Positions 8,640 to 43,809 of a stretch of 64,000 bases of DNA are shown piece by piece. Position numbers and translations under genes: made by a program. Under the pieces are notes generated by a model, which was not told the origin of the DNA, did not search any database, and worked only from the letters and a program-made list of their open reading frames with translations. The stretch lies in contig NZ_MTQD01000011.1 of the NCBI RefSeq assembly GCF_001974875.1, positions 62,001 to 126,000 of the forward strand. The letters run 5' to 3'. Within the stretch, counting starts at the first letter, position 1, and every line of letters begins with the position of its first letter. The stretch comes from Pseudoalteromonas sp. EB27. GTDB lineage: Bacteria; Pseudomonadota; Gammaproteobacteria; Enterobacterales; Alteromonadaceae.

Positions 8640-8846
8640 TACCAATTCGCTTAATTAAGTGATCTATTTTGAGGGAAGAAAATCGTGTCGATAACAAGGC
8701 AAAAATTTCGTTATTTAGTTGTTCTCGGCAATTGCTCCTGCATTGCTCTACCTCCTGCATCCATGCAGTTGTATATCAGAAATTTTTAACGTAGTTAACG
8801 TCAGATTTAACCCCTCAAATTGATTAAGTATTATTACGGATTGGTA
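8640..8846 (+). repeat. MITE-like interspersed repeat, copy 1 (full length, 207 bp)
   Basis: It begins TACCAATTCG and ends CGGATTGGTA, an imperfect terminal inverted repeat of about 30 bp per end. Each end continues through a CTTAAT-type block to a TTTGAGGG block. The interior has no ORF of useful length. The same sequence recurs in inverted orientation at 57379-57569, including the interior block TTCGTTATTTAGTTG. TA flanks both ends. It starts at the MCP stop codon. Confidence 0.85.
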
Positions 8847-8862
8847 TAATTACGCTAACTAT

Positions 8863-8909
8863 ACTTTAAACAACAAAGCCGCTAAATAAGCGGCTTTGTT
8901 GTTTAAAGT
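8863..8909. terminator. Long perfect hairpin between MCP gene and mrcB
   Basis: Two perfect 21-base arms (8863-8883 and 8889-8909) with a 5-base loop contain the GCCGCT/AGCGGC core typical of terminators here. It lies just past the mrcB stop. The usual U run is incorporated in the stem (TTGTTGTTTAAAG), so termination strength is less certain. Confidence 0.75.
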
Positions 8910-8918
8910 AATCTCAAA

Positions 8919-11261: not shown

Positions 11262-11354
11262 TTAAGTGTAATTTATTCCAAGGGTTATTCACGAGTGTGA
11301 GCTTAGCATATTGGGCATACCCTAACATCCGAAAAGTTAACCCTCCCTGAAACA

Positions 11355-11384
11355 AAAAAGCCCTACCGAAGTAGGGCTTTGTGT
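11355..11384 (-). terminator. Terminator of glnK-amtB operon
   Basis: AAAGCCCTAC (11357-11366) pairs with GTAGGGCTTT (11371-11380). The minus-strand product ends in a T run. Confidence 0.88.
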
Positions 11385-11410
11385 AAACACACTATTATTT
11401 AAATAAACTA

Positions 11411-26469: not shown

Positions 26470-28137
26470 CTAAATTTTAAACTGACCAACAAGCTGGCCT
26501 AGGTTTTCACCACGCGCCGCTAAATGCTGACCAACAGTAGACGTGGTTTTACTTGAAATAGTTAACTCATTAACTATTTCTTTAATGGCAAATACATTAC
26601 GATTTATTTCTTCTGTAACACTACTTTGCTCCAGGGCTGCCGTTGCAATTTGCGTACTCATGTCGTTAATTGATCTAACTGAGGTTGTTACCGCACCTAA
26701 ACTTTCTGAAATAGCACGAGACGATTCAACCGAGCGATTACAACTACTTTGGCTTGCTTGCATTGCAGCTACGGCATCTGATACTAAATTATGTAACTCA
26801 CTTAACATCTCACTGATCTCTAGTGTGCTAACTTGAGTACGACTTGCTAGGCTTCTTACTTCATCGGCAACAACAGCAAATCCTCGGCCTTGCTCACCTG
26901 CTCGTGCAGCTTCTATCGCAGCATTTAGTGCAAGTAAGTTTGTTTGCTCGGCAATTCCACCAATTACGCTTAGTACACTATTAATCTTTTTAGATTGATC
27001 ACTGAGTGAATCAACTTGTTCAGCGGCTAGGTTTATCTCGCCCATTAGGTTGGACACCTCACTGAGTGAAATATCAACACACTCTTGAGCCTTAGCAACT
27101 TCTTGCGTTGCCGTTTGGGTTGATTCTGCCACTTGATTCGTATTTTGGGCCACCTCATGAGAAGTAGCTGACATTTCGGTAATTGCCGTCGCAACTAGGT
27201 CTGTTTCATGGTTGTGATTAAGTAGCTTGTCTTCAATTAATCGTGTTTGTGTATTTATATCACTAGAGGCTATTTTTACATCGTGTGTTACATCAACCAC
27301 ATTGGCAATTATACCGTGAAGCTTACTTACAAACATATTAAATGCTTCGCCAAGTTGGCCTATTTCATCGTTAGTATCAATATCTAAACGTTTGGTTAAA
27401 TCGCCCTCACCCTTTGCAATATCGTCAAGGCTTTGCGCCATGCGTTGTATTGGTTTTACCATTGTATTTGCAGCAACTAACGCACATATAATTGTTAACA
27501 CAACCCAAAACAAAGCAATTAGCAACAAGGTCATTACCTTATCATTCATGTGCTCTTGCATTGCCGTTTGGTATTTAAGTAGTTCAGCGTCTATATCATC
27601 CATATATGCGCCAGTACCAATCATCCAATTTGTTCCTGGGATCATTGCTGCGTAGCCCATCTTTTCAACTAAGCCTGTGGTATTTGGTTTTTGAAAATGA
27701 TAGTTAAAAGCGCCGCCGCCATTTCGAGCCTGTTCTAGTAAACCCACTATGATTTTTTTACCGTTAGGGTCAGTCATTCCTATTTTATTTTGCCCTTCAA
27801 TAGCATCACCTAATAGTGCATGAAAAACACTAACGCCATTTGTGTCGTATATAAAAAAGTAACCGCCTTGACCAAACGTTAAGTCTCTTAAAGCGTTTTT
27901 AGCATCTTGCTCAGAGCCATTTGCTATTTGATAGCGCACAATTTTACTGGCAATTTCCACCTCGGTGCTTAGCAACGTTTGTTTGTCACTTATTAGTTTA
28001 GTTTGAAATGCTTCAAAATTTTGTTGCTGATTTTTATTCTCTAAATAATAAGAGCTCAGCATCAAGCTAATCAAAAGTAGCATTAAGGGCAATATAGCTA
28101 ATAACAACAGTTTGTTTTTTAAGCTTAAATTACTCAT
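26470..28137 (-). CDS. Methyl-accepting chemotaxis protein with single Cache sensor
   Basis: This 555-residue inner-membrane chemoreceptor has a first helix at about 9-29 and a periplasmic single Cache (sCache_2) domain at about 35-185. The Cache domain contains [18 protein letters not shown] and [14 protein letters not shown]. The second helix is at about 197-222, then HAMP and a signalling coiled coil with the conserved tip ([33 protein letters not shown]). sCache_2 receptors often sense small carboxylates, but the ligand here is not known. The start was put at the ATG at 28137 because GGAG precedes it; an upstream in-frame ATG has no such site. Its 516-bp upstream region is shared with the divergent pel operon. 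Confidence 0.92.
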
Positions 28138-28653
28138 TTTTTCTCCGGGTAAATAAAGACGTAGATGCAGCAACAACTAAAACCTAGCAAAAACAATATA
28201 GTTTGCAGTTTTACTTATTTGCCCAAAAATAACTTCACTCATTTATATCGCTTTTAACTTATATAAGAAAAGCATAAATAAAAACAGGTAGGACCAAGTT
28301 TGTAAGAGGTCAGCTTAGCCACATTATAGTCCCAACTCGACCTTTTAGACACCAATAGCACAGAGACCTTAGTCTTAATCAAAAAATAATTTACCCAACA
28401 TTTGTCCGTTATTTAAAACACTATCTATTGAATAGTATTCATGTAGGTTTACTGCCTGTATTTTAGGTTAATTTGTAGCAAGTTAGAGTATTTAGCAAGT
28501 GAGTATAAATATTGACCACAAGGTAAAATCAATATGTAGAGATTAATTTTTCATTAACATATAATAATCCTATCCTCCTAAGACCAAATAACCAGATAGA
28601 TTAAAACATATTGTTTTGAGCCACTGTTATGAATTAATAAAAATGAATTACTA
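28138..28653. other. Divergent control region, Cache MCP / pel operon
   Basis: A 516-bp gene-free region. The part nearest pelA1 (from about 28530) is duplicated in front of pelA2. AGACCTTAGTC at 28364-28374 recurs in the acs-porin intergenic region. No terminator is evident, and no small ORF other than a 3-codon frame at 28643-28654. Confidence 0.5.
28560..28565 (+). promoter_or_regulatory. Candidate -10 element of pelA1 (duplicated before pelA2)
   Basis: TATAAT lies within a block, ATTAACATATAATAA, that is conserved in both pelA leaders. It would give a leader of roughly 85 bases. No convincing -35 element is seen, which would fit an activator-dependent promoter. Confidence 0.4.
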
Positions 28654-31359
28654 ATGAAATATATTTTATACCTCGTGCTTTTAATCTCTAGTCAAGTATT
28701 TGCAAAGCCTGTAAATAATAGTATTGCATTTTACTATTCGTACCCGATGCCTCTAGCCGAAATGACTTTTTATTCTCGCGTTGTAGTTCAGCCCGAACAC
28801 GTCACTGATCACGAACTTAATTGGTTTAAACAACGTAATATTGCTGTTTATGCTTATTTAAGTGTTGGCGAGTCCTTTAATAAAAATAAGTCATCACTTA
28901 GTATAAACCCCAACTGGGATAGTCATATTGCCGATTTAGCATCAGCACATTGGCAACAACATATTAAAAGTAGCGCTGCGGCATTAAAAGCACGCGGCTT
29001 TAATGGCTTATTTTTAGATACCCTAGATAGCTATCAGCTATTAGATGCTAAACACAGTAAACCAGATCAACAAACTGGGTTAGTCACCATAATAAGTTCA
29101 CTCTCTGAGACTTTTGATAAGCACCTTATCCTCAACCGGGGCTTTGAGCTATTGCCTAAACTCACTAATTTAGCCAACGACTTAGTTGCAGAGGGTTTGT
29201 ATAGCCACTTCAACCCTAACGACAATAGCTATACACTGACTAACAAAAACGACCAAAATTGGCTAAGCGCACAATTAAAAAAAGCACAAAACTTAGGCCT
29301 CAACGTCCAAATTATTGATTATGCAAAGCCCGATAACCGCCTCGCTATGGCACAAAAGATTATAGACGCAGGTTTTAATCCATGGGTGACAGATGGCCAC
29401 TTGCAAACATGGGGTACATCATCAATAAAACCGGTGCCTAGGCGAATATTAATTCCTTATAATAGCGATATTTCACCATTAGTTAAAAAATCTGTTCATT
29501 CAAAGCTTGCTACAATCATAGAATACTTAGGGTATATTCCTGATTATGTAGACATTGCTAAAGAAAGGTTACCTAGAATAGATCCGAGTTTACATGCCGG
29601 CATTATTTCTTGGACTACTAGTAATATATTTTATAGTACTGAGATTATTAAATGGCTAGAAGAAGGTTTAGAAATAGTACCGGAACTAATATTAGGGGAA
29701 TTACCTCAATCAAATAAATTACTAGCTAGTTTAGGCGTAGAAAATATAAATGTTGCGCAAGCTGGACCTTATAAAGTTGAATACTTTGCCGATTGGCTAA
29801 AAGGTGAAACTACAAAAGCACCTGTAATAATCCGACCAAACTTCCTTAAATTAACCTCAGACGCCACAGCGTTAATTAGCATTACTTCAGCAAACGGCAG
29901 AACACTAGCGCAAGGAAGTAAGACTAAACTGGGTGGCATAATAGTAGCCCCTTGGCTAATTGATAATTTACCACTGGAAGGCAGTAAATGGGTGATCGAC
30001 CCTAAGAAATTGTTAAAGAAAGTACTAAATTTACCCACAATATTAGCTCCTGATACAACGACTCTAAGCGGAAGGCGTATGTTAACTTTGCATATAGATG
30101 GCGATGGATTTAGTAGCGTTGCGCACTTCAAAGGTAAGCCATACAACTCAGAGGTAATTCGCGATGAGGTAATAAAAAGGTACAAATTGCCATTAACCTC
30201 CTCCATAATACAAGCAGACATAGAGCCTAACGGCTTACATTCAAAACAAAGTGAAGAACTTGAGCAAGTTGCAAGAGATATATTTGAACTACCTTATGTA
30301 GAGGTTGCATCGCACACATATAGCCACCCTTACTTTTGGAAAGTGCTATCAGGAATACAAAACATAGATGAAGATGATACAAAATACGGACTTAATTTAA
30401 ATATTCCTGGGTATCTCTCTGTCGATTTAGAAAAAGAAATTTCAGGGTCAATTCAATATATTAATGAACGACTGACGCCAAAGAATAAAAAAACAGTATT
30501 AATTCTATGGTCAGGCGATGCAGTTCCAGGACCAAAGGCTTTAGCCATAGCAAGAAAAGCTGGCGTGCTCAACGTGAATGGTGGTAATACTTCAGTAAAA
30601 GCTGATAACCCAACACTTACAAATGTATCGCCAATTGGACGACCTGAAGGTGACTTGTTATACCAAATTTATGCACCCATCATTAACGAGAACGTATATA
30701 CCAACTTGTGGCATGGGCCTTATTATGGTTTTAAGCGCCTAATCGAAACATTTGAAATTACAGAAAAACCATACAGATTAAAACCCTATAGTATTTACTT
30801 TCATTTTTATTCTGGTGAACTACCTGCTGGACTTGATGCCCTGAAATATAATATAGACTACGTACTTGCAAGACCGAATACGCCAGTACATTTAAGCCAG
30901 TATGCAAAAATAGCTAAAGACTTTTATTTTTCAGCTCTTGCTAAAAACAGCAATAACGAATGGTTATTTAGCTCTCAAAGCATTCGAACATTACGTATTC
31001 CCAATGATTTTGATGTTCCTAATGTAGCTCAAAGTTCAGGAATATCTGGCGTCACTCAAAAGGGTGATTACATTCATATAACTGATGATTTAGCAAAGCT
31101 TAGCTTTGAGCACAGCCAAGAAAACAATGTACCGTATTTAGCTTCAGCTAATGTCTCCATGGATAATTGGCAAGTGAATGGAGCTGTCAGTTTTAAAGCA
31201 TGGGTGCCTGCTAAAATTGATTTAGTTAATGGCCGTTCTTGTGAGTTTGTTTCTAATGATGGCAAGCGCTTTAAAGGTAAATCAAATGCTGATATCACAC
31301 AGTTTAGTCTGCCAAAAGGTCAATTCTATGGTTACTTAAAATGTAAAAGGGCTGCTTGA
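28654..31359 (+). CDS. pelA: PelA copy 1: Pel polysaccharide hydrolase/deacetylase
   Basis: This 901-residue exported protein has a signal peptide at 1-17. The N-terminal GH166 endo-alpha-1,4-polygalactosaminidase domain (about 20-260) carries D122 (LFLDTLD) and E180 (LVAEGLY), spaced 58 apart like D160/E218 of P. aeruginosa PelA. A linking region follows at about 265-465. The CE18 deacetylase domain has D482 and D484 (HIDGDGF) and H554/H558 (SHTYSHP), spaced as in P. aeruginosa (528/530/600/604). PelA trims and deacetylates Pel in the periplasm before export. All expected residues are present. It is followed, after 304 bp, by a second copy. No Shine-Dalgarno is visible; a 3-codon frame ends on the start codon (TAATG). 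Confidence 0.93.
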   Translation: MKYILYLVLLISSQVFAKPVNNSIAFYYSYPMPLAEMTFYSRVVVQPEHVTDHELNWFKQRNIAVYAYLSVGESFNKNKSSLSINPNWDSHIADLASAHWQQHIKSSAAALKARGFNGLFLDTLDSYQLLDAKHSKPDQQTGLVTIISSLSETFDKHLILNRGFELLPKLTNLANDLVAEGLYSHFNPNDNSYTLTNKNDQNWLSAQLKKAQNLGLNVQIIDYAKPDNRLAMAQKIIDAGFNPWVTDGHLQTWGTSSIKPVPRRILIPYNSDISPLVKKSVHSKLATIIEYLGYIPDYVDIAKERLPRIDPSLHAGIISWTTSNIFYSTEIIKWLEEGLEIVPELILGELPQSNKLLASLGVENINVAQAGPYKVEYFADWLKGETTKAPVIIRPNFLKLTSDATALISITSANGRTLAQGSKTKLGGIIVAPWLIDNLPLEGSKWVIDPKKLLKKVLNLPTILAPDTTTLSGRRMLTLHIDGDGFSSVAHFKGKPYNSEVIRDEVIKRYKLPLTSSIIQADIEPNGLHSKQSEELEQVARDIFELPYVEVASHTYSHPYFWKVLSGIQNIDEDDTKYGLNLNIPGYLSVDLEKEISGSIQYINERLTPKNKKTVLILWSGDAVPGPKALAIARKAGVLNVNGGNTSVKADNPTLTNVSPIGRPEGDLLYQIYAPIINENVYTNLWHGPYYGFKRLIETFEITEKPYRLKPYSIYFHFYSGELPAGLDALKYNIDYVLARPNTPVHLSQYAKIAKDFYFSALAKNSNNEWLFSSQSIRTLRIPNDFDVPNVAQSSGISGVTQKGDYIHITDDLAKLSFEHSQENNVPYLASANVSMDNWQVNGAVSFKAWVPAKIDLVNGRSCEFVSNDGKRFKGKSNADITQFSLPKGQFYGYLKCKRAA

Positions 31360-31663
31360 TGGTGAGTAATAAAAAACTAAGCTCTTATTATAAGTAACAT
31401 ATTGATACATTCTTTTATCGTTTTCTAAGTATAGGTTTGTAGGTTGCTCTTAATAACTCGAGTGGCAAACCTATGGGTTTTATTGTGGTGAGTAAATCAA
31501 ACCAGCATGTTATTATACCCCTTAAGTATATGGTTGAATTAACATGTAGAAATTAATCTTCCATTAACATATAATAACCCTATATTACTAATACCAAATA
31601 GCTAGATAAATTGGAACGCATTACTTTGAGCCACAGTTATAAATTAATTGAAATGAATTACTA
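31360..31663 (+). other. pelA1-pelA2 intergenic region with duplicated leader
   Basis: This 304-bp region contains the stem ATAGGTTTG (31431-31439) / CAAACCTAT (31466-31474), followed by GGGTTTTATT, a possible weak terminator. From about 31540 it repeats the pelA1 leader, including the TATAAT-containing block (31570-31575) and the 3-codon frame whose stop overlaps the pelA2 ATG. Confidence 0.6.
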
Positions 31664-34372
31664 ATGAAATATTTTTTATACCTAGTGCTTTTAATTTCTA
31701 GTCAAGTATTTGCAAAGCCTGTAAATAATAGTATCGCTTTTTACTACTCAGCGCCGATGCCATTAGCCGAAATGACCTTTTATTCTCGCGTTGTAGTTCA
31801 GCCCGAATTAGTCACTGAGCACGAACTTAATTGGTTTAAACAGCGTAATATTGCTGTCTATGCTTATTTAAGTGTTGGTGAGTCGTTTATTGAAAGTAAG
31901 TCTTCACTCGCAGTTAACCCTAACTGGAATAGCCATATTGCCGATTTGGCATCAGCACATTGGCAACAACATATTAAAAGTAGCGCTGTGGCATTAAAAG
32001 CACGCGGCTTTAGCGGCTTATTTTTAGATACCCTAGATAGCTATCAGCTATTAGATGCTACACACAGTAAACCCGATCAACAAGCTGGGTTAGTCACCAT
32101 AATAAGCTCACTATCTGAGACTTTTGATAAGCACCTTATCCTCAATCGGGGATTTGAGTTATTGCCTAAACTCGCTAATTTAGCAAGTGACTTAGTTGCT
32201 GAGGGTTTGTATAGCCACTTCAATCCAACCGACAATAGCTATAAAGTGACCAACAAAAACGACCAAGATTGGCTAAGCGCACAATTAAAAACAGCACAAA
32301 GTTTAGGCCTCAACGTCCAAGTTATTGATTATGCAAAGCCCGGTAATCGCCTTACTATGGCACAAAATATTATAGACGCAGGTTTCAATCCGTGGGTGAC
32401 CGACGGTCACTTGCAAACGTGGGGCACATCATCAATTATGCCGATCCCTAGGCGCATTTTAATCCCTTATAACAGTAACGTAAAACCACTCATATACACT
32501 ACCGTACACTTAAAGCTTGCGACCATGATTGAGTATTTGGGGTACATACCTGATTACATAGATATGGCAAAACGCGACTTACCTTTGGTTGACCCTAGCT
32601 TACATGCCGGTATTATTTCGTGGACCTCAAGCGATGCATTTTACACCCCAGCACTTACCAATTGGCTTGAAGCTAATTTAGGTGTTGTGCCAGAACTTAT
32701 TTTAGGCGAGTTACCACAGTCAACTAAATTACTATTTAACATGGGTATTGAGGCGTTAAACACACTACCTGAAGGTCCATATAAACAAGATAGCTTTGCA
32801 CCTTGGCTCAAAGGAGAATCCACAACACCTCCCCCTATCGTTAAACCATATTTACTAAAATTAGCAACTAATGCGACTCCTTTAATTACAATAAAATCAG
32901 CTGATAACACGATAATTGTACAAGCGGCTAAAACTAAATATGGTGCAGTCGTGGTTGCTCCTTGGCTAATTGATACATTTCCGATGGAGGGCAGCAAATG
33001 GGTTATTGATCCACGTACATTACTAACTCAGGCTATGGAACTACCACCTATATTAGTGCCAGATACAACCACCGAAAGCGGTAGGCGAATGCTTACGCTG
33101 CATATAGATGGAGATGGATTTACAAGTGTTGCCCACTATGCGGGTAGGCCTTATTCAGCAGAAGTAATTCGAGATGAAATAATTAAACACTACAAACTAC
33201 CGTTAACGTCCTCAGTGATCCAAGCTGACATTGAAGAAGGCGGTATTCACTCTAAACAAAGTGCCAAACTCGAAGACATTGCGCGTAGTATTTTTAAGCT
33301 GCCTTACGTAGAAGTTGCTTCACACACCTATAGCCACCCCTATTTTTGGACTGCTCTATCTGGGCGAAAAAAAATAGATGAAGACGACACTGATTACGGT
33401 TTTCATCTAGATGTACCTGGCTACAACACCATCAGCCTTAAAAAAGAAATTACAGATTCGATAAAATATATTGATGAAAAACTCACACCTAAAAATAAAA
33501 AAACAGTGATGATGTTATGGTCAGGCGATGCAACACCTGGTCCTAAAGCGCTTGAACTGGCTCGTGATGCTGGTGTGCTAAACGTAAATGGCGGCAACAC
33601 TGATGTAAATTCCGATAACCCTAGCCTTACACATATATCACCTATTGGCCGCCCTGAAAGAGATTTGCTGTATCAAATTTATGCCCCCATATTAAATGAA
33701 AATGTTTACACTAACTTATGGCATGGCCCTTATTATGGCTTTAGACGCTTAACTGAAACTTTCGAAATTACAGAAAAGCCATATAGGTTAAAACCTTACA
33801 CTATTTATTATCACTTTTATTCAGGTGAAGTTCTTGCGGGACTAGACGCTCTTAAACACAATATAGATTATGTTTTAGCAAGACCAAATACACCTGTGCA
33901 TTTAAGCCATTATGCAAAAGTAGCAAAGGATTTTTACTTTTCTGCACTTGCAAAAAACAGTAATAATGAATGGTTATTTAGCTCAAAGTACATTCATACT
34001 TTGCGAATACCTACCGATTTTGATGTGCCAAACATAGCTCAAAGTGAAGGTGTATCCGGTGTAACTGAAAAAGGTGACTACATACATATTATAAATAACA
34101 TAGCTCGCCTTAGCTTTGATCATAGCCAAAATAGTAAAAAACCTTATTTAGCGTCTGCAAATGTTGTTATTAATAACTGGCAAGTTAACGGGCCTGTTAG
34201 TTTTAAAGCGTGGGTACCTGCTTCGCTTGATTTAATGAATGCACGCTCTTGTGAGTTTGTATCTGGTTTGGGTGAGCGCTTTAAAGGTATTAACCGAGGC
34301 AAATTAACACATTTCAAAATACCTGCAGGTGATTTTTATGGTTACCTTAACTGCGACGGAGCCGCACTATAA
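31664..34372 (+). CDS. pelA: PelA copy 2: Pel polysaccharide hydrolase/deacetylase
   Basis: A tandem paralogue of 902 residues with the same signal peptide and domain order as copy 1. The catalytic residues fall at identical positions: D122 and E180 (GH166), D482, D484, H554 and H558 (CE18). DNA identity to copy 1 is very high through the leader and the first 255 codons or so, then drops sharply; the proteins stay clearly homologous to the end. Its stop overlaps the pelB ATG (TAATG), so this copy is translationally coupled to the rest of the operon, as a normal pelA would be. This suggests copy 2 is the ancestral operon member and copy 1 the inserted duplicate. Functional division between the two is unknown. 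Confidence 0.93.
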   Translation: MKYFLYLVLLISSQVFAKPVNNSIAFYYSAPMPLAEMTFYSRVVVQPELVTEHELNWFKQRNIAVYAYLSVGESFIESKSSLAVNPNWNSHIADLASAHWQQHIKSSAVALKARGFSGLFLDTLDSYQLLDATHSKPDQQAGLVTIISSLSETFDKHLILNRGFELLPKLANLASDLVAEGLYSHFNPTDNSYKVTNKNDQDWLSAQLKTAQSLGLNVQVIDYAKPGNRLTMAQNIIDAGFNPWVTDGHLQTWGTSSIMPIPRRILIPYNSNVKPLIYTTVHLKLATMIEYLGYIPDYIDMAKRDLPLVDPSLHAGIISWTSSDAFYTPALTNWLEANLGVVPELILGELPQSTKLLFNMGIEALNTLPEGPYKQDSFAPWLKGESTTPPPIVKPYLLKLATNATPLITIKSADNTIIVQAAKTKYGAVVVAPWLIDTFPMEGSKWVIDPRTLLTQAMELPPILVPDTTTESGRRMLTLHIDGDGFTSVAHYAGRPYSAEVIRDEIIKHYKLPLTSSVIQADIEEGGIHSKQSAKLEDIARSIFKLPYVEVASHTYSHPYFWTALSGRKKIDEDDTDYGFHLDVPGYNTISLKKEITDSIKYIDEKLTPKNKKTVMMLWSGDATPGPKALELARDAGVLNVNGGNTDVNSDNPSLTHISPIGRPERDLLYQIYAPILNENVYTNLWHGPYYGFRRLTETFEITEKPYRLKPYTIYYHFYSGEVLAGLDALKHNIDYVLARPNTPVHLSHYAKVAKDFYFSALAKNSNNEWLFSSKYIHTLRIPTDFDVPNIAQSEGVSGVTEKGDYIHIINNIARLSFDHSQNSKKPYLASANVVINNWQVNGPVSFKAWVPASLDLMNARSCEFVSGLGERFKGINRGKLTHFKIPAGDFYGYLNCDGAAL

Positions 34373-37300
34373 TGAATACTACAAAGCGCCCTCAGTTAAT
34401 TTCAGTAAAAACAATATTAGCGATATTAGCCGTAAGTTGTTTTGCACTTTATGCATTATTTCCACATACCTTATTTTTTGAAGATGATGCACTTTCACAA
34501 GACTATACCTTTGAGAAGTCTTACCTTAATGCAGCGCTCAATACAGAGCCCGACAACGAAAAGCTACGCGCAAAATTAGTTGAGCTACATATAGGGCTTA
34601 GTGAGTATTCACAAGCTACTAACGAGCTTGAAAAGCTACCTAGAGGTGAGCGCAAAGCAACACTTGAAATAAAGCTGCTCTACTCATTATGGCTAGCAAG
34701 CGGTGCTAAAGTTGACGACCGCTTTGAAGAGTTATCTTTAAAAATTGGTGCTCATAAAAACTGGAACGAACAAATATTAACTATTGCAAAAGCAGTTGGG
34801 TTAAATGCAAAAGTTGCTCAGTACTATCAAAAAAATAAACAGCCTCTCCTTGCAGCCGATTACTGGTTAAGCGCAGGCGAACCAGACAAAGCATTCGCTA
34901 TTTATAAAACAAATATAAATGCTGATTTTGCAGCTAAAGCGATTGAAACTGCACTTGGTGCAAATCACCCGATACAAGCTTATGCATGGTGGAAAACCTA
35001 TGGCGACCAAGCCAATATTAAACGCACACTTTATTTGGCTAACTTAGCAGGCAATACGGAAGATGCAGCTCAAGCCATTGAAAGTTTATTAAAAGCTGAG
35101 CCAAATAACACAGAGTACTTAACACAAGCGATGCACCTGCGTTTGGCAAATGCAAATGCAAAAGGGGCAGAGCAATTACTCGCAAAGTTATTACTACAAA
35201 GCCCAGCTGACAAAGAGCTACATTTATTAAATTGGAAGATAAAGCGCTGGCAAAACAAGCCTGAAGAAGCACTTCGAGAGTTTAAATGGCTAATGTCTAA
35301 CAAAGCTGTAACTCCTGCGATGCTTACCGATAGTATTAACGATGCCACCGCTTTATATTTATACCAAGACGCTAATGATATATACGAATATAAAGCCCAA
35401 AATAGAAATCTAAAAGGTAATGGCTTTGCTAATTGGATGCAAGCTAACGAATTTATTGGTAACACAAAGCAAGAATTAAATAATATTGAACGCTTTGAGC
35501 AAATAAATGGTAAAAGTGCATTATCACAATATTGGAAAGCAAAAGTACTTCACGATACTGGTAATTTAAAAGCATTAAGGGCTTTGTGGCCTACATATAA
35601 AGGGCCTAAAAATGAAGAAGATTTACTTTGGATTGCCCGCGCATTTTGGCTAGAAGATGACTTTTCTACAGCTCTGCAAGTACTAAAAAATAAACATGAA
35701 AGTTCTGACGATGAATTTTGGAGCGCCAATATTGACATGGCAATGCGAGTTAAGGACAAAGCTCATGAGCTATATGCATTAGAGAAGTTACAAAAAATAA
35801 GTCCTTTGAGCGTAGGCGACATGCTGCACTACCAACAACTGCGCTTTGAAGGTCGGCCTCAGGAGCTTCTTGATTATTTATGGAAAAGCGACTCGCAAAC
35901 TGACCGTCAATTGATTCAAATTGCATTATTAAGCACACAAGTAAATGATGCTAAATCAGTTGCACGTATTCATGCTGAACTTGATAAACAACGATATAAT
36001 AAAGCTCTCTATCCTGCTTGGTTAATTCTTTCTAATTGGTATCAAAACCAAAGTGATTTAAATTCAGCTTATACAACTTTAAACCGCGCCGCTAAATTAA
36101 GTGAATATGACTCTGATGTTGTGCTGGCACAAGGTTGGTTAGCGCTGCAAATGCACGACACCGTGATGATCAGCCGCATTTTAGCTCGCTATTCTCAAAG
36201 CGACCCTTCCTATGCGTGGACCCAGCTATTAGCAAGCTTATCTATTCACGAAAAGTCATATAACAGTGCTTACTTTTATTTGCGTAAATTAGCCATTGCA
36301 GATCCAAGCGATTTAACAACACTGGTTAACTTAGCCGATGTAATGAAGCAACTTGGTTATTATGCAAATGCTGCTGAACTTAATCACTATTTACTGCAAC
36401 ACTTACCTAAAGATAAATATGCATACAGAGGCTTAATGTTCCGCTGGGCGGGCGCGATGGCTGTTCCTCATTTAATGCAATTAAACACAATGGAAGAACT
36501 TGCCCCCGACACTATTGGTGAGCCCCAAACAAACTGGTGGTTAGCGCGCAGGGCTGCACAAAAATTAGAGCCATGGCAAAAACTACAACTTTATATGACC
36601 AACGGCGAATTTAATAAAGCGAAACAACTATTAGCAGAAGGCTCACTAAGCAAATTAGATGAACTAAACGCCCTACTCTATCTAAAGCAGCCATACGCAA
36701 CAATGCAGCGTTGGTATGAAGAACTGACTGGTGAGCTTGACGAATCACAATTGAGCTTACTTAGAAATGCACGTGCATCCTACTTTAGGGCGCTTGAAAT
36801 TAACCTATCGCCAGAGGCTGGTTTAAACAGTAGCCAGTACGATGTAAACGTTTATTTTCCTTATGCTAATGGGCAATGGAAATTAAGTTTAAGTAATCAG
36901 CAAAATCTTGATAACAACGGATTACTGTTTGCGATAGAAGATAAAATGACATTTGGTCGTTGGTATTTTGATGCAAAAATAGATTCTCACCAAGGCAGCT
37001 TAGTTAGCCGCCAAGGTCTTAGCTTAGACTCTCGTTATCAATGGGATTCGCGTACACAGATAGGTTTAAAGCTTGAATATAATGTTGAAAACCGCCAATC
37101 AGAAGCGCTACTTAGTTATGCTCAACTAGATAAAGCCACGGCCTATGTTAACTACAACATTGATGGTAGACAAAACGTACAACTATCAGCAGCAGCGATG
37201 TCTTTTTCTCGAAGAGACGATGGCAGCTCACTCATTAATGGCCAAGAATATAATGCACGTTACCAGTACAGCATTTTAAAAGATCGCCCAATTTGGAACG

Positions 37301-37653
37301 CTTATTTTAGTGCACAATGGCAAGACTTTGAACGTGTAAATGCATTAATAAATACAGACACAAGACCTCTAAGAGTTGACCTTCAACCATTTAGGCGCTT
37401 TGCACTAGGTACCTCATTTGCCTCAACGGGTTCGTTAGAGCCGCCTTATTTAGGCGCAAACCCTTCATGGCTATTCGATATAAGTACTGGCTATCAAACA
37501 CTTAACGATACAGTAGATGTATCTGTTTCGAGTGGCGCAGGTTGGTCTGTACTAGGCGATGATTTATTTAAATTACAGCTGGGTTACCAAAGTAGTAATA
37601 AAGTGGGTAACTCAGATACACAATTACAATTAGGTTATTACGTACATTTTTAA
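34372..37653 (+). CDS. pelB: PelB: TPR scaffold and outer-membrane porin for Pel export
   Basis: This protein of 1093 residues is a little shorter than the P. aeruginosa protein (about 1190). It has an N-terminal membrane anchor at about 13-31 (TILAILAVSCFALYAL). A long helical TPR-like array follows (about 50-790), and a C-terminal beta-barrel (about 815-1093) is rich in alternating strands and ends in a typical outer-membrane aromatic residue (LGYYVHF). The barrel is the export pore for Pel, and the TPR part binds PelA and guides polymer. The start overlaps the pelA2 stop by one base and its stop is followed 14 bp later by pelC, consistent with a single pel operon. Confidence 0.9.
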   Translation: MNTTKRPQLISVKTILAILAVSCFALYALFPHTLFFEDDALSQDYTFEKSYLNAALNTEPDNEKLRAKLVELHIGLSEYSQATNELEKLPRGERKATLEIKLLYSLWLASGAKVDDRFEELSLKIGAHKNWNEQILTIAKAVGLNAKVAQYYQKNKQPLLAADYWLSAGEPDKAFAIYKTNINADFAAKAIETALGANHPIQAYAWWKTYGDQANIKRTLYLANLAGNTEDAAQAIESLLKAEPNNTEYLTQAMHLRLANANAKGAEQLLAKLLLQSPADKELHLLNWKIKRWQNKPEEALREFKWLMSNKAVTPAMLTDSINDATALYLYQDANDIYEYKAQNRNLKGNGFANWMQANEFIGNTKQELNNIERFEQINGKSALSQYWKAKVLHDTGNLKALRALWPTYKGPKNEEDLLWIARAFWLEDDFSTALQVLKNKHESSDDEFWSANIDMAMRVKDKAHELYALEKLQKISPLSVGDMLHYQQLRFEGRPQELLDYLWKSDSQTDRQLIQIALLSTQVNDAKSVARIHAELDKQRYNKALYPAWLILSNWYQNQSDLNSAYTTLNRAAKLSEYDSDVVLAQGWLALQMHDTVMISRILARYSQSDPSYAWTQLLASLSIHEKSYNSAYFYLRKLAIADPSDLTTLVNLADVMKQLGYYANAAELNHYLLQHLPKDKYAYRGLMFRWAGAMAVPHLMQLNTMEELAPDTIGEPQTNWWLARRAAQKLEPWQKLQLYMTNGEFNKAKQLLAEGSLSKLDELNALLYLKQPYATMQRWYEELTGELDESQLSLLRNARASYFRALEINLSPEAGLNSSQYDVNVYFPYANGQWKLSLSNQQNLDNNGLLFAIEDKMTFGRWYFDAKIDSHQGSLVSRQGLSLDSRYQWDSRTQIGLKLEYNVENRQSEALLSYAQLDKATAYVNYNIDGRQNVQLSAAAMSFSRRDDGSSLINGQEYNARYQYSILKDRPIWNAYFSAQWQDFERVNALINTDTRPLRVDLQPFRRFALGTSFASTGSLEPPYLGANPSWLFDISTGYQTLNDTVDVSVSSGAGWSVLGDDLFKLQLGYQSSNKVGNSDTQLQLGYYVHF

Positions 37654-37667
37654 TGTTAGGAGAGAGT

Positions 37668-38183
37668 ATGTTTCGTTTAATTATACCGTGTTTGGTATTA
37701 CTATTATCAGCATGTACCACCAGCAGAGTTGCTGATGATGTAGAGCTTAGCCCTTTAAAAACAGTGGCATTAATGCCACTTGTTAATCATGCTCAAACAC
37801 CGCTTGCAGGTGAGCGTGCTGAAGATATTTTAGCCAGTATTTGGCAACAAAATAAATTACCAACTCTTATACGTGCACCTCGCGTTAACACCAAAGAGCT
37901 TCCACCGCTGGACGATCAATACCGCTTAGACAATGCTATGCAGTGGTTAAACACTCAACAAGCTGACTATGTATTAACAGGCAGTATTGAAGAGTGGCGC
38001 TATAAAGCTGGCCTTGATGGCGAACCCGTTGTTGCACTTACATTATCACTCACTGTAACTGGACAAACAACACCGATTTGGACCGGTACTATTGCTAAAA
38101 GTGGTTGGGGCCGCGATAGCATTGCAGCAACAGCACAAGATGTGATTGCCGATTTAATTTCTTATATAGAGGTTAGTGAGTGA
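37668..38183 (+). CDS. pelC: PelC: outer-membrane lipoprotein of Pel export
   Basis: This 171-residue lipoprotein has lipobox LLLSAC with lipidated C16. The length is nearly that of P. aeruginosa PelC (172). PelC forms a ring at the periplasmic face of the outer membrane that funnels Pel toward the PelB barrel. The start was taken as the ATG at 37668, with AGGAGAG just upstream; an in-frame ATG five codons earlier overlaps the pelB stop but would spoil the signal peptide. The stop overlaps the pelD GTG start (GTGA). Confidence 0.9.
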   Translation: MFRLIIPCLVLLLSACTTSRVADDVELSPLKTVALMPLVNHAQTPLAGERAEDILASIWQQNKLPTLIRAPRVNTKELPPLDDQYRLDNAMQWLNTQQADYVLTGSIEEWRYKAGLDGEPVVALTLSLTVTGQTTPIWTGTIAKSGWGRDSIAATAQDVIADLISYIEVSE

Positions 38184-39478
38184 AAACACATTTCCTTAGA
38201 CCAAGAGACGTTCCTGAGCTACAAATATGGGCTGAGGTATTTATATTTACCGCGCTTGCTTTAGGGCTGCCTGTATTATTTAACGCAGAGGACCCATTTT
38301 GGACTGAGGGAGGGTTTTCGTGGCCTGTACTTGGCCCACTTTTAGTTTCTCTACGTTATGGCTTTTCAAAAGGCTTTATTAGTATTTTATGTTTGCTTGT
38401 TGGCCAACTTTTTTTACTTCAAACAAATATTTTATCACCACAAAGCGACTTCAATATTAACGCTATGATTGGCTACATTATTGTAATTATGATCACAGGT
38501 GAATTTAGGGATGTGTGGGAGCGCACTAATCAACAACAAAGTATTCAGCTTGAGTACGTAACCGACCGCCTTGAAACATTTACTCGTCAGTATCACTTAA
38601 TTAATTCATCTCACGATAGAATAGAGCAAATGTTAGCTGGCCATACGTTAAGTTTGCGTGAATCGCTACAAGCAGTAAGAACCTCTATCGGGCTATTAAA
38701 AGAAAGAAGACTTGATAGCGCAGCGCAAAAAATAATCGACCTGTTCGTTGAATATGGTTTATTAGAAAGAGCGGGTTTATATAAAGTTGAAAATGACACT
38801 GTTTTAGAGCCACCACTTGCCTCTATTGGCAAAATGAGTCAAATAGCTGAAAACGATCCTCTTATATTAGCGATGATTGAAGAAAAAGAATTAGTATCAG
38901 TAAAAGACGCAAAAATGGCATCAGGTATAAGTAAATACCATATGGCGATTCCACTTATCGACGTAAATAACACAATTTATGGCGCTATTTTAGTTGAAAG
39001 AGTACAATTTTTTGCACTTAAAAATACCACTCTTACACTACTTGCAGTTATGGCTGGGCATATTGGCGACCTACTGCGCCATGAAATAACAAACCCAGTA
39101 ATGACTTATGAAGAGTATCCATACTTTATTCGCCAAGTTAAACGTGCGAATAAAGAAGCAAAACGATACAACATTCCATCGCAGCTACTAAAAATAAAAG
39201 CTAATAATATTACTGATAAATCCACTCAACTTATGAGTTATTTAAGTGAAGCCCGTCGTGGTTTAGACATTTATTTGTACGATAATCAAAATCAGGTATT
39301 ACTGCTATTGATGCCATTAGCTGATGAACTTGAAAAAGCAGGGTTTATCGCCCGAATGAACACTTGGTGTAAAGAGCGCACTGGTAGCACTTTAGCTGAG
39401 CTTGATATTGTTATTGAGCAGCAACTTGCACTACCTATAAGCTCAGATGACATAAAGAGATTGGTTTCACTTTCATGA
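38180..39478 (+). CDS. pelD: PelD: c-di-GMP receptor controlling Pel synthesis
   Basis: This 432-residue inner-membrane protein has hydrophobic helices at about 15-110 and a coiled linker. A GAF domain (about 150-300) and a degenerate GGDEF domain (about 310-430) without the catalytic signature follow. The c-di-GMP-binding inhibitory-type site RxxD is present as R360-G-L-D363, preceded by R359. In P. aeruginosa the equivalent R367/D370 is required for c-di-GMP binding and Pel production. It starts with GTG overlapping the pelC stop, and its own stop overlaps pelE (ATGA). This is the point where the operon should sense c-di-GMP. Confidence 0.9.
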   Translation: MKTHFLRPRDVPELQIWAEVFIFTALALGLPVLFNAEDPFWTEGGFSWPVLGPLLVSLRYGFSKGFISILCLLVGQLFLLQTNILSPQSDFNINAMIGYIIVIMITGEFRDVWERTNQQQSIQLEYVTDRLETFTRQYHLINSSHDRIEQMLAGHTLSLRESLQAVRTSIGLLKERRLDSAAQKIIDLFVEYGLLERAGLYKVENDTVLEPPLASIGKMSQIAENDPLILAMIEEKELVSVKDAKMASGISKYHMAIPLIDVNNTIYGAILVERVQFFALKNTTLTLLAVMAGHIGDLLRHEITNPVMTYEEYPYFIRQVKRANKEAKRYNIPSQLLKIKANNITDKSTQLMSYLSEARRGLDIYLYDNQNQVLLLLMPLADELEKAGFIARMNTWCKERTGSTLAELDIVIEQQLALPISSDDIKRLVSLS

Positions 39479-40458
39479 TTATAATTATTGTAGCGGCTAT
39501 ATTAGGGTTTATTTGTCAGTACTTTGCACTAATAGAAGTACTGGAAACACCTAATTGGTTTTTAGCTATATTATTGCATGCTATTGCTAGCATCTTTTTT
39601 GCTATTGTTAGTTATGTTTTTATACCTAAAAAATACAAAACGACTCCTTATAGCTCTTTGCTACTCATGTTTTTATTATTGCTTACATTACCAGTACTTG
39701 GAATTATAGGTGTTGTAGTAGCACTTACATTTGCTCTTTGTAAACCTCTCAAGAATGACGAGATAGAAATAGAGGAGCATAAAATACCTGAGCTTCCTTT
39801 TGAAGCCAGAGCAATATCAGCAAATCCAACCTATTCAATTGGCGGACTTAAAGCAATTTTGAAGCACGCTAATGAGCCAAACAAGCGTTTAAGTGCTGTA
39901 ATGGCGGCTCGTCACATGAGTGACTCACAAGCTATTCCTATTTTAAAGCTAGCACTTAAAGATTTAGAAGATGATATTCGACTACTCGCCTACTCAACCC
40001 TTGATGGTAAAGAAACCAAACTTAACGAAAAAATCAGTTTGTACCAGCAAGAAATAGCCATTACGACTAAGCAGCCAAAGTTAAGTAATTTACAAAAACA
40101 ACTAGCCGAACTTTATTGGGAACTTAGCTACTTAGGTTTAGCACAAGGTGCGCTTCGTGAATACGTTTTAGAAAAAGCCGAAGCACTTGCACAGCAAAGT
40201 ATTGAGCACGTAAAAACACCTGCAACCTTTATATTTTTAGGGCGTATATCTTTAGCCTTAAACAAATACGAAATAGCCCATGAGTACCTACTCAAAGCAA
40301 CTGAGTCGGGCATGGCAAGGCGTCATGTTCTCCCTTATAAAGCCGAAGTTGCCTTTTGTATGAACAAGTTTGACGACTGTAAACGCTACTTAAAAGAACT
40401 CCCAGAACAACCTAAGGGCAGTGAATTACGTCATTTACAGGAGTATTGGCATGAGTAA
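39475..40458 (+). CDS. pelE: PelE: inner-membrane TPR component of Pel synthase
   Basis: This 327-residue protein has two or three hydrophobic helices near the N-terminus (about 2-20, 27-48 and 62-84) and a cytoplasmic helical TPR-like region (about 110-327). Length agrees with P. aeruginosa PelE (329). PelE joins PelD, PelF and PelG in the inner-membrane synthase complex. Start and stop both overlap neighbours (pelD by four bases, pelF by eight), as expected for co-translated complex subunits. Confidence 0.88.
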   Translation: MIIIIVAAILGFICQYFALIEVLETPNWFLAILLHAIASIFFAIVSYVFIPKKYKTTPYSSLLLMFLLLLTLPVLGIIGVVVALTFALCKPLKNDEIEIEEHKIPELPFEARAISANPTYSIGGLKAILKHANEPNKRLSAVMAARHMSDSQAIPILKLALKDLEDDIRLLAYSTLDGKETKLNEKISLYQQEIAITTKQPKLSNLQKQLAELYWELSYLGLAQGALREYVLEKAEALAQQSIEHVKTPATFIFLGRISLALNKYEIAHEYLLKATESGMARRHVLPYKAEVAFCMNKFDDCKRYLKELPEQPKGSELRHLQEYWHE

Positions 40459-41968
40459 CAAAAATGCAGACATTTTACTGCTTTTAGAAGGCACTTACCC
40501 TTATGTGCGTGGTGGCGTATCTAGCTGGGTTCATCAAATAATTGAAGGGTTACCTCATTATAACTTTGAGCTTGTTTTTATAGGTGGAGCACCAGAGCAT
40601 TATGGCGAGATTCAATATACTTTGCCTAAAAATGTTACCAAGCTGCATGTACATTATTTAGTGGAAAATGACACTTCTGAAATAAAAGCTAAGCATGGCG
40701 TTAAATATAAAAAAGAGCTCTTTGATTTTTGGCAGCAACTACAAAATTATTTTAGAGATTGTGATGAGCCCATCCCAACTGAGTTATTAAAGTTTGCATT
40801 TGAGACTTTGGCTAAAAAAGACGGTATTAACGAAGCCGACTTTTTATATAGTGAATCATCGTGGCAAGTACTCACTAATTATTATTCAACTTTTTGTGAT
40901 GAATCTTCTTTTATTGACTTTTTTTGGTCATATCGCAATTTATATAAACCGCTATTTAAAATAGCCGAAATTGCACGAGGGCTTCCTAAAGTTAAACTTA
41001 TTCACTCAATATCTACCGGGTATGCGGGTATTTTAGGATCCGGCGCCAGTGTAATAAGTAATACTCCCTTTTTGTTGACCGAGCATGGTATTTACACCAA
41101 AGAGAGAAAAATAGATCTTATTCAAGCCAGTTGGATCAAAGAGTCAGAACAAAGCCTAGGTAAAAACTTAAATACCGAGATGGGCTTTATTCGCCGTATG
41201 TGGATCAGCTTTTTTGAGCAAATTGGCCGAACAACATACCAAGAAGCAGATAAGATCATTTCGCTATACGACGGTAACAGGCAGCGCCAAATAAAGGATG
41301 GTGCAGCGCCAGAAAAAGCATTTGTTGTACCTAATGGAATTAAAACAGTGCGCTTTATTGAAGCGCTTGAGCAGCGTCCAAAACAGATACCACCAGTTGT
41401 TGGATTAATTGGACGTGTAGTGCCTATAAAAGATATTAAAACCTTTATACGTGCGATTAAAGAGGCGCAATCGATGCTGCCTGAAGTAGAAGGCTGGATC
41501 ATCGGCCCTTATGAAGAAGATCCGCAATATTACAAAGAGTGTGAACTACTTGTAGGCAGTCTTGATTTACAAAGCAGTGTAAAGTTTTTAGGTATGCAAG
41601 ATATTACCAAAATTTTGCCTAAGCTCGGAATTGTAGCTTTAACCTCGATTTCCGAAGCGCAGCCTTTAGTACTTTTAGAAGCAATGGCGGCCGGTGTGCC
41701 TGTACTTGCTAGTGATGTTGGCTCGTGCCGCGAAATAATCGAAGGCGGAACCGATGAAGATAAAGCATTAGGTAAAGCCGGTGAAGTTGTCTCAATTGCT
41801 TCACCTAGCGAAACAGCACAACAAATATCAAACATGCTAACAAATGAGCAAGTTTGGCTTGAGTATCAAAAAAGTGGTTTAGACCGCGTACAAAAATTTT
41901 ATGACGAGAGCCACATGTTTGCCCGTTACGATAAACTTTATAAGGATACAATGGCATGGCCGGAATAG
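40451..41968 (+). CDS. pelF: PelF: cytoplasmic GT4 glycosyltransferase polymerising Pel
   Basis: This 505-residue GT4-family retaining glycosyltransferase (507 in P. aeruginosa) has an N-terminal segment LLLEGTYPYVRGGVSSWVHQ that is distinctive for PelF. The C-terminal nucleotide-sugar site has the E-x7-E motif in SISEAQPLVLLEAMAAGVP. It polymerises amino-sugar nucleotides on the cytoplasmic side. The start was set at the ATG at 40451 (CAGGAG upstream), overlapping the pelE stop; an upstream in-frame ATG lies deep inside pelE. Its end overlaps pelG by 13 bases. Confidence 0.94.
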   Translation: MSNKNADILLLLEGTYPYVRGGVSSWVHQIIEGLPHYNFELVFIGGAPEHYGEIQYTLPKNVTKLHVHYLVENDTSEIKAKHGVKYKKELFDFWQQLQNYFRDCDEPIPTELLKFAFETLAKKDGINEADFLYSESSWQVLTNYYSTFCDESSFIDFFWSYRNLYKPLFKIAEIARGLPKVKLIHSISTGYAGILGSGASVISNTPFLLTEHGIYTKERKIDLIQASWIKESEQSLGKNLNTEMGFIRRMWISFFEQIGRTTYQEADKIISLYDGNRQRQIKDGAAPEKAFVVPNGIKTVRFIEALEQRPKQIPPVVGLIGRVVPIKDIKTFIRAIKEAQSMLPEVEGWIIGPYEEDPQYYKECELLVGSLDLQSSVKFLGMQDITKILPKLGIVALTSISEAQPLVLLEAMAAGVPVLASDVGSCREIIEGGTDEDKALGKAGEVVSIASPSETAQQISNMLTNEQVWLEYQKSGLDRVQKFYDESHMFARYDKLYKDTMAWPE

Positions 41969-43320
41969 GTTTTGAGATACGAAAAATTCTCAAAAAAAAT
42001 ACCCTGCTCTCAGTTTTTGAAGCATACGGCTACGCGGGCTTAATAGGCTCAGGTCCTTGGCTGCTCTCTATTGTAGCGTTAATGCTAATTGGTATTTTAA
42101 GTTTAGGCGTTGTATTACCTAAAGTACTTATTATTCAGTTTTTAACGCTTGTTACCTACATGATGGCAGCTTCACTTATTTTAACGGGTGGCTTGCAGTT
42201 ATTATTAACTCGATTTATTGCTGATTTGTTTTTTCAAAAAGAAGAGGCAAAAGTACTTCCTAATTTACTTGGTGCGCAACTTATAACAACAATAGCCGCA
42301 TTATTGGTGGGCTTGGCTGTATGGCCTATGCTCCCTATACCCGTTGTTACTAAGATTATAATTTTAGGTGCCTTTGTAAGCTTATGTAATCAGTGGCTTG
42401 GCGCTATTTTTCTATCGGGTATGAAAGAATACCGGTTGATTTTGATTACCATGCTAAGTGGTTATGCCTTTATGGTACTGCTTGCATATTTATTAAGAGA
42501 CTGGCAGTTAGACGGCTTGTTTTTTGCATTTTTCGCTGGCGAAGCACTGCTCTTTTTTAGCTTTTTATTTATGATTATTCGCCGCTACCCTGGTGAAAAA
42601 CTTATAAGCTTTGACTTTTTAAGCAATAAAAAAGTGTATTACAGCCTGTTCTTTTGTGGTCTGTTTTACAATATTGGCGTGTGGGCTGATAAAATCATTT
42701 TTTGGTATTCTCCAAGCACATCAATCCAAATTATTGGCACGTTAAGAGCCAGCCCAATTTATGACTTACCTATATTTTTGGCCTATTTATCTATTATTCC
42801 TGGTATGGCAGTATTTTTAGTAAAAATGGAAACCGACTTTGTAGAAGAGTACGACCGTTTTTACACCGCTATTCGTGGTGGCTCATCTCTTGAAGAGATA
42901 TACATATTAAAAGACAGTATGATCCAGACTGCGCGTGCTGGTTTATACGATATATTTAAAATTCAGGGTATTACCGTTGCCTGCTTATTATTATGGGGTG
43001 AGCAAATACTTACCTTTATTGGTATTGATCCAAACTACAAAACGCTGTTATTTATTGATGTAGTAGGTGTAGGGGTGCAAGTTATATTTTTGTCTATTTT
43101 GAATATTTTGTTTTATTTAGATAAACGCTCAACAGTCCTATTTTTAGCTGGACTATTTTTGGTAATAAATGTGGTTTTAACTTTGCTATCAATAGCTTTT
43201 GGGCCGCAGTTCTATGGATATGGCTTTGCATTAGCAACCATTATTACCTCGGTAGTAGGGTTATTCTGGCTTTCAAAGCAATTTGAAGATTTAGAATATG
43301 AAACGTTTATGCTGCAATAG
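41956..43320 (+). CDS. pelG: PelG: inner-membrane Pel transporter
   Basis: A 454-residue MATE/Wzx-like membrane protein with about 12 helices (456 residues in P. aeruginosa). It opens with the PelG-typical MAGIGFEIRKIL followed by YAGLIGSGPWLLS, and has the conserved stretch FYNIGVWADKIIFW near residue 240. It moves Pel across the inner membrane together with PelD and PelE. It is the last gene of the pelA1A2BCDEFG run. No strong terminator follows, so transcription may run into the small gene 81 bp downstream. Confidence 0.93.
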   Translation: MAGIGFEIRKILKKNTLLSVFEAYGYAGLIGSGPWLLSIVALMLIGILSLGVVLPKVLIIQFLTLVTYMMAASLILTGGLQLLLTRFIADLFFQKEEAKVLPNLLGAQLITTIAALLVGLAVWPMLPIPVVTKIIILGAFVSLCNQWLGAIFLSGMKEYRLILITMLSGYAFMVLLAYLLRDWQLDGLFFAFFAGEALLFFSFLFMIIRRYPGEKLISFDFLSNKKVYYSLFFCGLFYNIGVWADKIIFWYSPSTSIQIIGTLRASPIYDLPIFLAYLSIIPGMAVFLVKMETDFVEEYDRFYTAIRGGSSLEEIYILKDSMIQTARAGLYDIFKIQGITVACLLLWGEQILTFIGIDPNYKTLLFIDVVGVGVQVIFLSILNILFYLDKRSTVLFLAGLFLVINVVLTLLSIAFGPQFYGYGFALATIITSVVGLFWLSKQFEDLEYETFMLQ

Positions 43321-43401
43321 ACTATTTAAAACTCAATAGAAAATACATTATTTACCAAAAACTACACGCGTAGAGCTCTTTTATGACTAACGGAGAATAA
43401 T

Positions 43402-43710
43402 ATGGAAGTAGACTATTTAAATTATTCACTGCAAGAGCTACATGAAGCTTGGATAACAATTGATGATTACGCTTACCCAGAGCGTGCGATCAAGGTTTAT
43501 CAGCTTTTGAAAAATGCTGAGGCTAAAGCGACAGAAGATAATTCTTCCAGTGCATCTTTTACGTGGGTCGCGTCCGTGCTACGTAATTTCAGTAGGCCTA
43601 GATTATATAACCCAAGCTTTAGCGATATATTACTGGAAGAAAGTAGTGCAACGATGAAAGAGCAACGTGTGATAAAACTCATCGCAAAAAGAGAAAGTAT
43701 TGACCACTAG
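43402..43710 (+). CDS. Hypothetical protein downstream of pelG
   Basis: This 102-residue soluble, helical-looking protein has no signal peptide or membrane helix. GGAG lies 7 bases before the ATG, so translation is credible. Its opening, LQELHEAWITIDDYAYPERAIKVYQLL, resembles a short helical motif with a YPER core seen at the N-termini of some membrane proteins; that is only a resemblance. It follows pelG by 81 bp without a clear terminator and could be part of the same transcript. I do not recognise a family and assign no function. Confidence 0.65.
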   Translation: MEVDYLNYSLQELHEAWITIDDYAYPERAIKVYQLLKNAEAKATEDNSSSASFTWVASVLRNFSRPRLYNPSFSDILLEESSATMKEQRVIKLIAKRESIDH

Positions 43711-43809
43711 CAAGTGCTCAATACTTTTAAATAAAGTGAAGCTCAACACTATCCATTAGTCTGCACTTGCATAATCCCTGTGTAACTAAAAATAGTTAAG
43801 TTGATGTAA

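Follow-up and report, generated by a model that had tools for sequence, protein, structure and literature searches.

Two mosaic pelA genes in tandem within the pel operon of Pseudoalteromonas sp. EB27

In a window of 64,000 nucleotides from Pseudoalteromonas sp. EB27 (contig NZ_MTQD01000011.1, positions 62,001 to 126,000), we found a pel operon with two pelA genes in tandem, pelA1 and pelA2. Both have intact frames and keep the catalytic residues. Together they form a mosaic: their GH166 hydrolase parts are nearly alike, their remaining parts are not, and this remaining part of pelA1 branches deep within the genus. Two close relatives have a single pelA at the same site. On sequence comparison, pelA2 is the resident ortholog and pelA1 the extra gene. 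The reading we favour, with some reserve, is that a divergent pelA arrived on the upstream side of the resident gene, that recombination later made the hydrolase halves alike, and that the two PelAs then shift Pel output.

Two intact PelA genes with uneven identity

The two pelA open reading frames (28654-31359 and 31664-34372) lie head to tail on the + strand, with no internal stops, ahead of pelB-pelC-pelD-pelE-pelF-pelG. This agrees with the first-pass annotation, which had described tandem PelA genes of 901 and 902 residues inside an otherwise complete pel operon. From pelA to pelG the genes are contiguous and make up a complete Gram-negative pel operon, where pelC and pelE were assigned from order, size and homology, neither having a match above the curated cut-off. 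The genome is a 4.5 Mb draft of 36 contigs with a listed completeness of 100 and contamination of 0.04. It contains two PelA matches and one PelG match, so we consider it a single pel system with two PelAs. The features, all on the + strand, are as follows.

28537..28653, +: leader 1, with a promoter-like element at 28537-28565 and, presumably, the 5' untranslated region of pelA1; shares 96/117 bases with leader 2
28654..31359, +: pelA1, 901 amino acids, intact, the extra divergent copy; match to 9CGY (the PtPelA structure) over residues 22-891, E 4.2e-161
28654..29439, +: pelA1 signal peptide and GH166 hydrolase part, codons 1-262; Pfam Glyco_hydro_114 at 45-252; like pelA2 and the G005 pelA
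29409..29463, +: break in identity between pelA1 and pelA2, best at codon 258, beside the border of the hydrolase and alpha-beta domains
29440..31356, +: pelA1 mixed alpha/beta domain (~263-463), CE21-type deacetylase (~464-759) and beta-rich domain (~760-901); branches deep in the genus
31357..31377, +: pelA1 stop codon and, after it, a vestige similar to a pelB start, matched best by the pelA-pelB junctions of G016 and G064
31378..31546, +: spacer between the pelA copies, with no terminator-like site
31547..31663, +: leader 2, the resident pelA leader; 89% over 127 bases against the G005 pelA leader
31664..34372, +: pelA2, 902 amino acids, intact, the resident ortholog; its stop overlaps the pelB start; match to 9CGY over residues 22-888, E 3.5e-155
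34372..37653, +: pelB (TPR and barrel); Pfam PelB_C 2.6e-28
37653..43320, +: pelC, pelD, pelE, pelF and pelG; PelD_GGDEF, PelF NF038011, PelG PF16933

Both PelA1 and PelA2 match the solved four-domain PelA (9CGY) nearly end to end, and D122, E180, H480, D482, D484, H554, H558, E679 and H717 are present in both. As reference we used the active-site residues given for the P. aeruginosa (Pa) and P. thermotolerans (Pt) PelA in PMC12022489. In both copies, D122 and E180 align with the hydrolase residues Pa D160/E218 and Pt D149/E207, and H480, D482, D484, H554, H558, E679 and H717 correspond to the deacetylase residues Pa H526, D528, D530, H600, H604, E723 and H761; the equivalence of E679 and H717 was counted two columns on from aligned columns. 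Thus, the GH166 pair and the deacetylase residues that had been annotated in both copies are there. The CE18 label given to the deacetylase is outdated and wrong, since PelA is the founding member of CE21 according to PMC12022489. Judging from these sequences, the operon encodes two intact and probably active PelAs.

The first-pass annotation overlooked that identity is not uniform along the two copies. Over the whole protein, 687/902 columns are identical (76%). By domain, amino acid identity is 89% in the hydrolase, 60% in the mixed alpha/beta domain, 79% in the deacetylase and 70% in the beta-rich domain, and residues 19-262 are identical at 217/244 positions. A two-rate fit placed the break at codon 258 (range 252-270 within 2 log-likelihood units, lnL), with 90.4% DNA identity before and 69.6% after (lnL gain 74). 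The last residue of the hydrolase domain is at about 262, as mapped from the PtPelA border at 292/293 with a numbering offset of 10. Synonymous divergence was 0.34 in codons 1-260 and undefined, 3.1 and 1.6 in the three later segments: synonymous sites outside the GH166 part are near or beyond saturation. The codon alignment was built without L016, L017 and L021-L023, and with L019 and L020 trimmed at an inner start codon; the break fit, the column counts and the segment trees were run without L018-L020, and the other genus trees without G070, which has an internal stop.

Resident copy, exchanged hydrolase segment and leaders

The resident copy was told by comparison with two close relatives within the genus. 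G005 and G015 share the site and its flanking genes with the window: an MgtE transporter, a 249-residue protein without a Pfam match, a MarR regulator and a chemoreceptor, followed by one pelA and pelB. The G015 stretch compared extends through pelG to an M15 peptidase gene, and that of G005 ends inside pelB. Except for pelA, the flanking and pel genes of both are 94-99.6% identical in protein to those of the window. PelA2 is 93% (G005) and 92% (G015) identical to their single PelA, and the first part of pelB 94% and 96%. Against the 13 closest single pelAs in the genus, pelA1 is 70-77% identical. It lies after the chemoreceptor gene and ahead of the resident pelA2, where G005 and G015 have only ~475 bases, and we found no pelA-like remnant match in that interval of either genome.

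In the trees, pelA1 after codon 262 (hereafter the C-part) branches deep in the genus pelA clade. Constraining pelA1 and pelA2 as sisters there was rejected by the approximately unbiased (AU) test (p 3.6e-6), and a position of pelA1 within the clade formed by pelA2 and the four relatives nearest to pelA2 was weakly rejected (AU p 0.037, Shimodaira-Hasegawa (SH) p 0.05). Two further constraints were left unused: a split of pelA1 from all the other sequences, which is empty by construction, and pelA1 joined to the G016 clade, which reproduces the best tree. Accordingly, the copies are not each other's closest relatives over their full length: they group with G005 as a trio in the GH166 core, and their sister grouping is rejected in the C-part. 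On the trees, the AU test and the synonymous saturation we reject a recent tandem duplication of the resident pelA, and the duplication proposed in the first-pass annotation is not supported.

The GH166 segment tells a different history from the rest of the gene. In codons 101-255, pelA1, pelA2 and the G005 pelA form one group with 92-93% DNA identity, whereas G015 is 78-79% identical to these three and groups with G084 and G086. In codons 271-901, pelA2, G005 and G015 are 92-93% identical to one another in DNA. For the GH166 core, a grouping of pelA2, G005 and G015 without pelA1 was rejected (AU p 6e-41). Since the two segments group differently and the alternative is rejected, we conclude that the GH166 segment moved between genes or species, and the type of segment in the resident pelA2 differs from the one in its close relative G015. 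The AU test did not reject a deep placement of the shared GH166 type (p 0.12), so overwriting fits in either direction, from pelA1 onto pelA2 or the reverse. Codons 1-100 are a finer patchwork. The locus also suggests an exchange of the GH166 part of pelA among genes and species, as a block whose end lies close to the domain border. The G005 pelA (L003/L102) is a case in its own right: it has the window-type GH166 segment, though elsewhere the gene is 93% identical to that of G015, where the other type is found, as expected of a hydrolase segment recombining across species.

Each pelA has its own similar leader, as had been annotated: 96/117 bases are identical (82%), and both contain a promoter-like TAGARA-17-TATAAT element (10/12 consensus match). 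This is a consensus match only, as the region has 10 such promoter-like sites and shuffled sequence, where they are no rarer, has a mean of 15.0. Leader 2 is 89% identical over 127 bases to the G005 pelA leader, and leader 1 is 77% identical to it. Upstream of leader 1, the sequence is weakly like the intergenic region of G005 and of G007-type relatives (L003, L006, L007 and L008); the spacer between the copies resembles none of these four intergenic regions.

About 20 bases after the pelA1 stop resemble the pelA-pelB junction of other species, G016 and G064 being the best. None of 457 other intergenic windows reached the score of this vestige, and among 2000 shuffles 3 (best score) and 5 (mean score) did. 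The resemblance to a pelB start suggests that pelA1 once directly preceded a pelB. Across the other 107 genomes of the genus, the only match to 31357-31545 was one of 28 bases in G080. No terminator was detected between pelA1 and pelA2, hairpin stability in the spacer was ordinary (z -1.3 for 31410-31500 and 0.2 for 31357-31500), and an Rfam scan of 28000-44000 returned no family.

Origin and possible role of the second pelA

In the scenario that we favour, pelA1 would come most likely from another, unsampled Pseudoalteromonas lineage, where it would have stood directly before a pelB. Recombination would later have homogenised the leader and the GH166 halves of pelA1 and pelA2, in either direction, and the alpha/beta, deacetylase and beta-rich domains of the two copies would have stayed different. 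The deep branching and the vestige fit an acquisition rather than prove it, with the closest match to the pelA1 C-part at 74%.

Several observations weigh against this scenario. The base composition of pelA1 differs little from that of pelA2. Among 15 genus sequences compared, pelA1 also departs most from conserved columns: it differs at 28/490 columns that are invariant in the other 14, the runners-up being G101 and G035 with 15 each. Its departures include 11/92 alpha/beta and 13/197 deacetylase columns, and this excess could reflect relaxed constraint. A search for a donor in GTDB contigs, 395 family genomes and plasmids gave nothing above 74% identity over the pelA1 C-part, and for this reason an ancient paralogue lost elsewhere has to be weighed too. 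At the functional level, a P. aeruginosa strain with raised PelA had a poor cell-associated signal by lectin blot and a parent-like one by antibody blot (PMC9894940), and the simple idea of an unleashed hydrolase is weakened because PelB left hydrolase activity unchanged in the tests of PMC12022489.

Had pelA duplicated near the base of the genus, with pelA1 kept only here and the 5' halves kept alike by gene conversion, the pelA1 C-part would branch near the base of the genus pelA clade, as it does, and no donor would be expected. Even the GH166 type shared with G005 could be the trace of a former pelA1 there. We regard this history as rather unlikely, since the 18 other genus genomes with pelA have one each and many losses would be needed, and the chemoreceptor-pelA gap of G005 and G015 shows no remnant. 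Considerably more plausible, though we hold it at somewhat below an even chance, is that the GH166 part of pelA1 came in with it and replaced the one in pelA2, making the resident gene the mosaic; this is a variant compatible with the acquisition that we favour. The GH166 part of PelA2 has 81% amino acid identity to G015, against 96% for the C-part and 94-99% for the other compared genes, and the deep placement of the shared type is not rejected by the AU test. However, that type lies closer to the native clade in the best trees, a placement favoured by 11.7 log units, and G005 has it without pelA1.

A duplication of the resident pelA in tandem, confined to this lineage and with one copy diverging fast afterwards, would explain the adjacent position, the similar leaders and the 90% identity of the first 258 codons. 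It is very improbable given the rejected sister grouping of the C-part and the contrast in synonymous divergence along the gene; fast divergence of one copy by selection is unlikely because synonymous sites are saturated too. An assembly artefact could be imagined in a draft of 36 contigs with 258 codons 90% alike, but we give it hardly any credence with some hundreds of differing sites between the copies, a contamination of 0.04 and a contig of 194 kb. A serious rival concerns function rather than origin: pelA1 may be a redundant passenger, active or nearly so, that adds nothing and will be lost. We find this quite conceivable, though less likely than not. Two copies occur in only one species examined, pelA1 is the most derived sequence at conserved columns, and in the distant L107 one of two tandem PelA-type deacetylase genes is without the active-site segment. 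On the other hand, pelA1 has kept an open frame, the nine catalytic-site residues and a promoter-like element despite a synonymously saturated C-part.

If pelA1 does contribute, as in the scenario that we favour, both PelAs would be made from their own promoters, exported and active. PelA2 would work with PelB as in P. aeruginosa, and PelA1 would add hydrolase dose and a second deacetylase and docking half. It may compete for the same PelB, or dock differently on it, giving more cleaved, secreted Pel. In P. aeruginosa, hydrolase activity generates secreted Pel (PMC9894940). According to PMC12022489, the alpha/beta and deacetylase domains are modelled to dock PelB and the hydrolase is not, and PelB boosts deacetylation by PelA; it had no effect on hydrolysis in that paper's own tests, whereas earlier work cited there reported a decrease. 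A higher hydrolase dose, more secreted Pel and alternative docking are thus effects that we would predict, with redundancy as their serious rival. No pointer turned up to the competitor-biofilm role that the first-pass annotation had suggested, and no test was aimed at that role.

More speculatively, and on balance doubtful, the locus could be a two-enzyme system for Pel tailoring. One secretion complex would be served by two PelAs with near-identical hydrolases and different deacetylase and PelB-docking halves; the PelA ratio would set cleaved, secreted against retained, deacetylated Pel, with recombination holding the hydrolase halves, and these alone, alike. The shares of Pel that are cut loose and retained by the cell depend on PelA. 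A natural strain in which two PelAs have one hydrolase type in common and unlike docking and deacetylase halves would separate the hydrolase, deacetylase and PelB-docking functions without engineering.

Other pel loci

The first-pass annotation had asked for a survey of related pel loci for one versus two pelA genes. Among 108 genus genomes, 21 had a match: two copies here, one pelA in each of 18, a 147-residue fragment in G037 and a weak 25% hit in G014. Within the 18, the gene is broken by a frame change in G065 and has an internal stop in G070, and G055, G070, G077 and G079 carry a type that is far more distant. The C-part alone was used to search 395 family genomes, of which another six had one strong match each. 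Among 394 order, 369 class and 398 phylum genomes, 14, 15 and 11 further genomes had one match (E < 1e-100); of these distant single matches, G700 is without the hydrolase part, G656 starts at position 122 and G1033 has an internal stop.

Overall, a second full-length pelA was found in none of the 64 other genomes with a strong pelA match (overlapping samples, one genome per species), where the order, class and phylum searches scored at most two candidates per genome and could have missed a second copy. It was also absent from 58 named loci, a set that overlaps with the genome sets, within at most 8 kb on either side and in some much less. A single pelA, which the first-pass annotation had given for known pel operons, is the usual case, and two intact copies in one complete operon are rare.

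Among the closest known systems is the canonical P. aeruginosa pelABCDEFG operon, whose PelA joins GH166, mixed alpha/beta, CE21 deacetylase and beta-rich domains. The window has the same gene order, a full-length PelA match and all the active-site residues checked; unlike that operon, it has two pelA genes, ~300 bases apart, each with a promoter-like leader. G005 and G015 have one pelA at the same site, and in the named single-pelA loci of MMG007, TB64, P. fuliginea KMM 216 and H71, pelB, pelF and pelG were also found. According to PMC11882849, the CsrA targets did not include pelA-D of P. fuliginea.

More than one pelA per genome is reported for Nitrosospira multiformis and Leptospirillum ferrooxidans in a 2020 survey (PMC7112194). 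Those cases are operon duplications or rearrangements, and the accessible part of that paper does not describe a tandem mosaic pelA pair. For exopolysaccharide systems apart from cellulose, the paper also notes a tendency towards more duplications of loci within operons than of whole operons. We noticed no report of a tandem mosaic pelA pair in the literature searched, although table S5 of PMC7112194 might list two pelA genes. Every part of the pair belongs to a known family, and it is the arrangement itself that, on these comparisons, appears new.

Split PelA loci, with separate hydrolase and deacetylase genes, are found in B. cereus (PelADA, as reported) and in L112 and L113. They suggest a natural border between modules at the hydrolase/deacetylase junction; unlike them, both window copies have the two domains fused. 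Several distant genomes with split PelA genes have two deacetylase matches, and we inspected four such loci (two genomes) and one tandem case. The tandem case is L107 (G1202, same phylum), where at 7396-12332 a hydrolase gene stands beside two tandem PelA-type deacetylase genes that agree at 79% over the longer of the aligned parts; the nearer of the two is without the segment that carries the active-site motifs of the other copy. The other two genomes, G1235 (L108 and L109) and G1205 (L110 and L111), have two separate PelA-type deacetylase loci each.

Finally, some minor observations concern reduced pel loci and the end of the window's operon. In G037 (L104, 3391-5924), what is left of the pel locus is about the first 140 pelA codons and the second half of pelG, next to the same chemoreceptor and mgtE genes. 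In L027 (Pseudoalteromonas sp. H71) and L016 (G065), a frame change near codon 92 interrupts the only pelA. Downstream of pelG in the window lies a small open reading frame (43402-43710, 102 amino acids) that has no Pfam or NCBIfam match at E 0.001.

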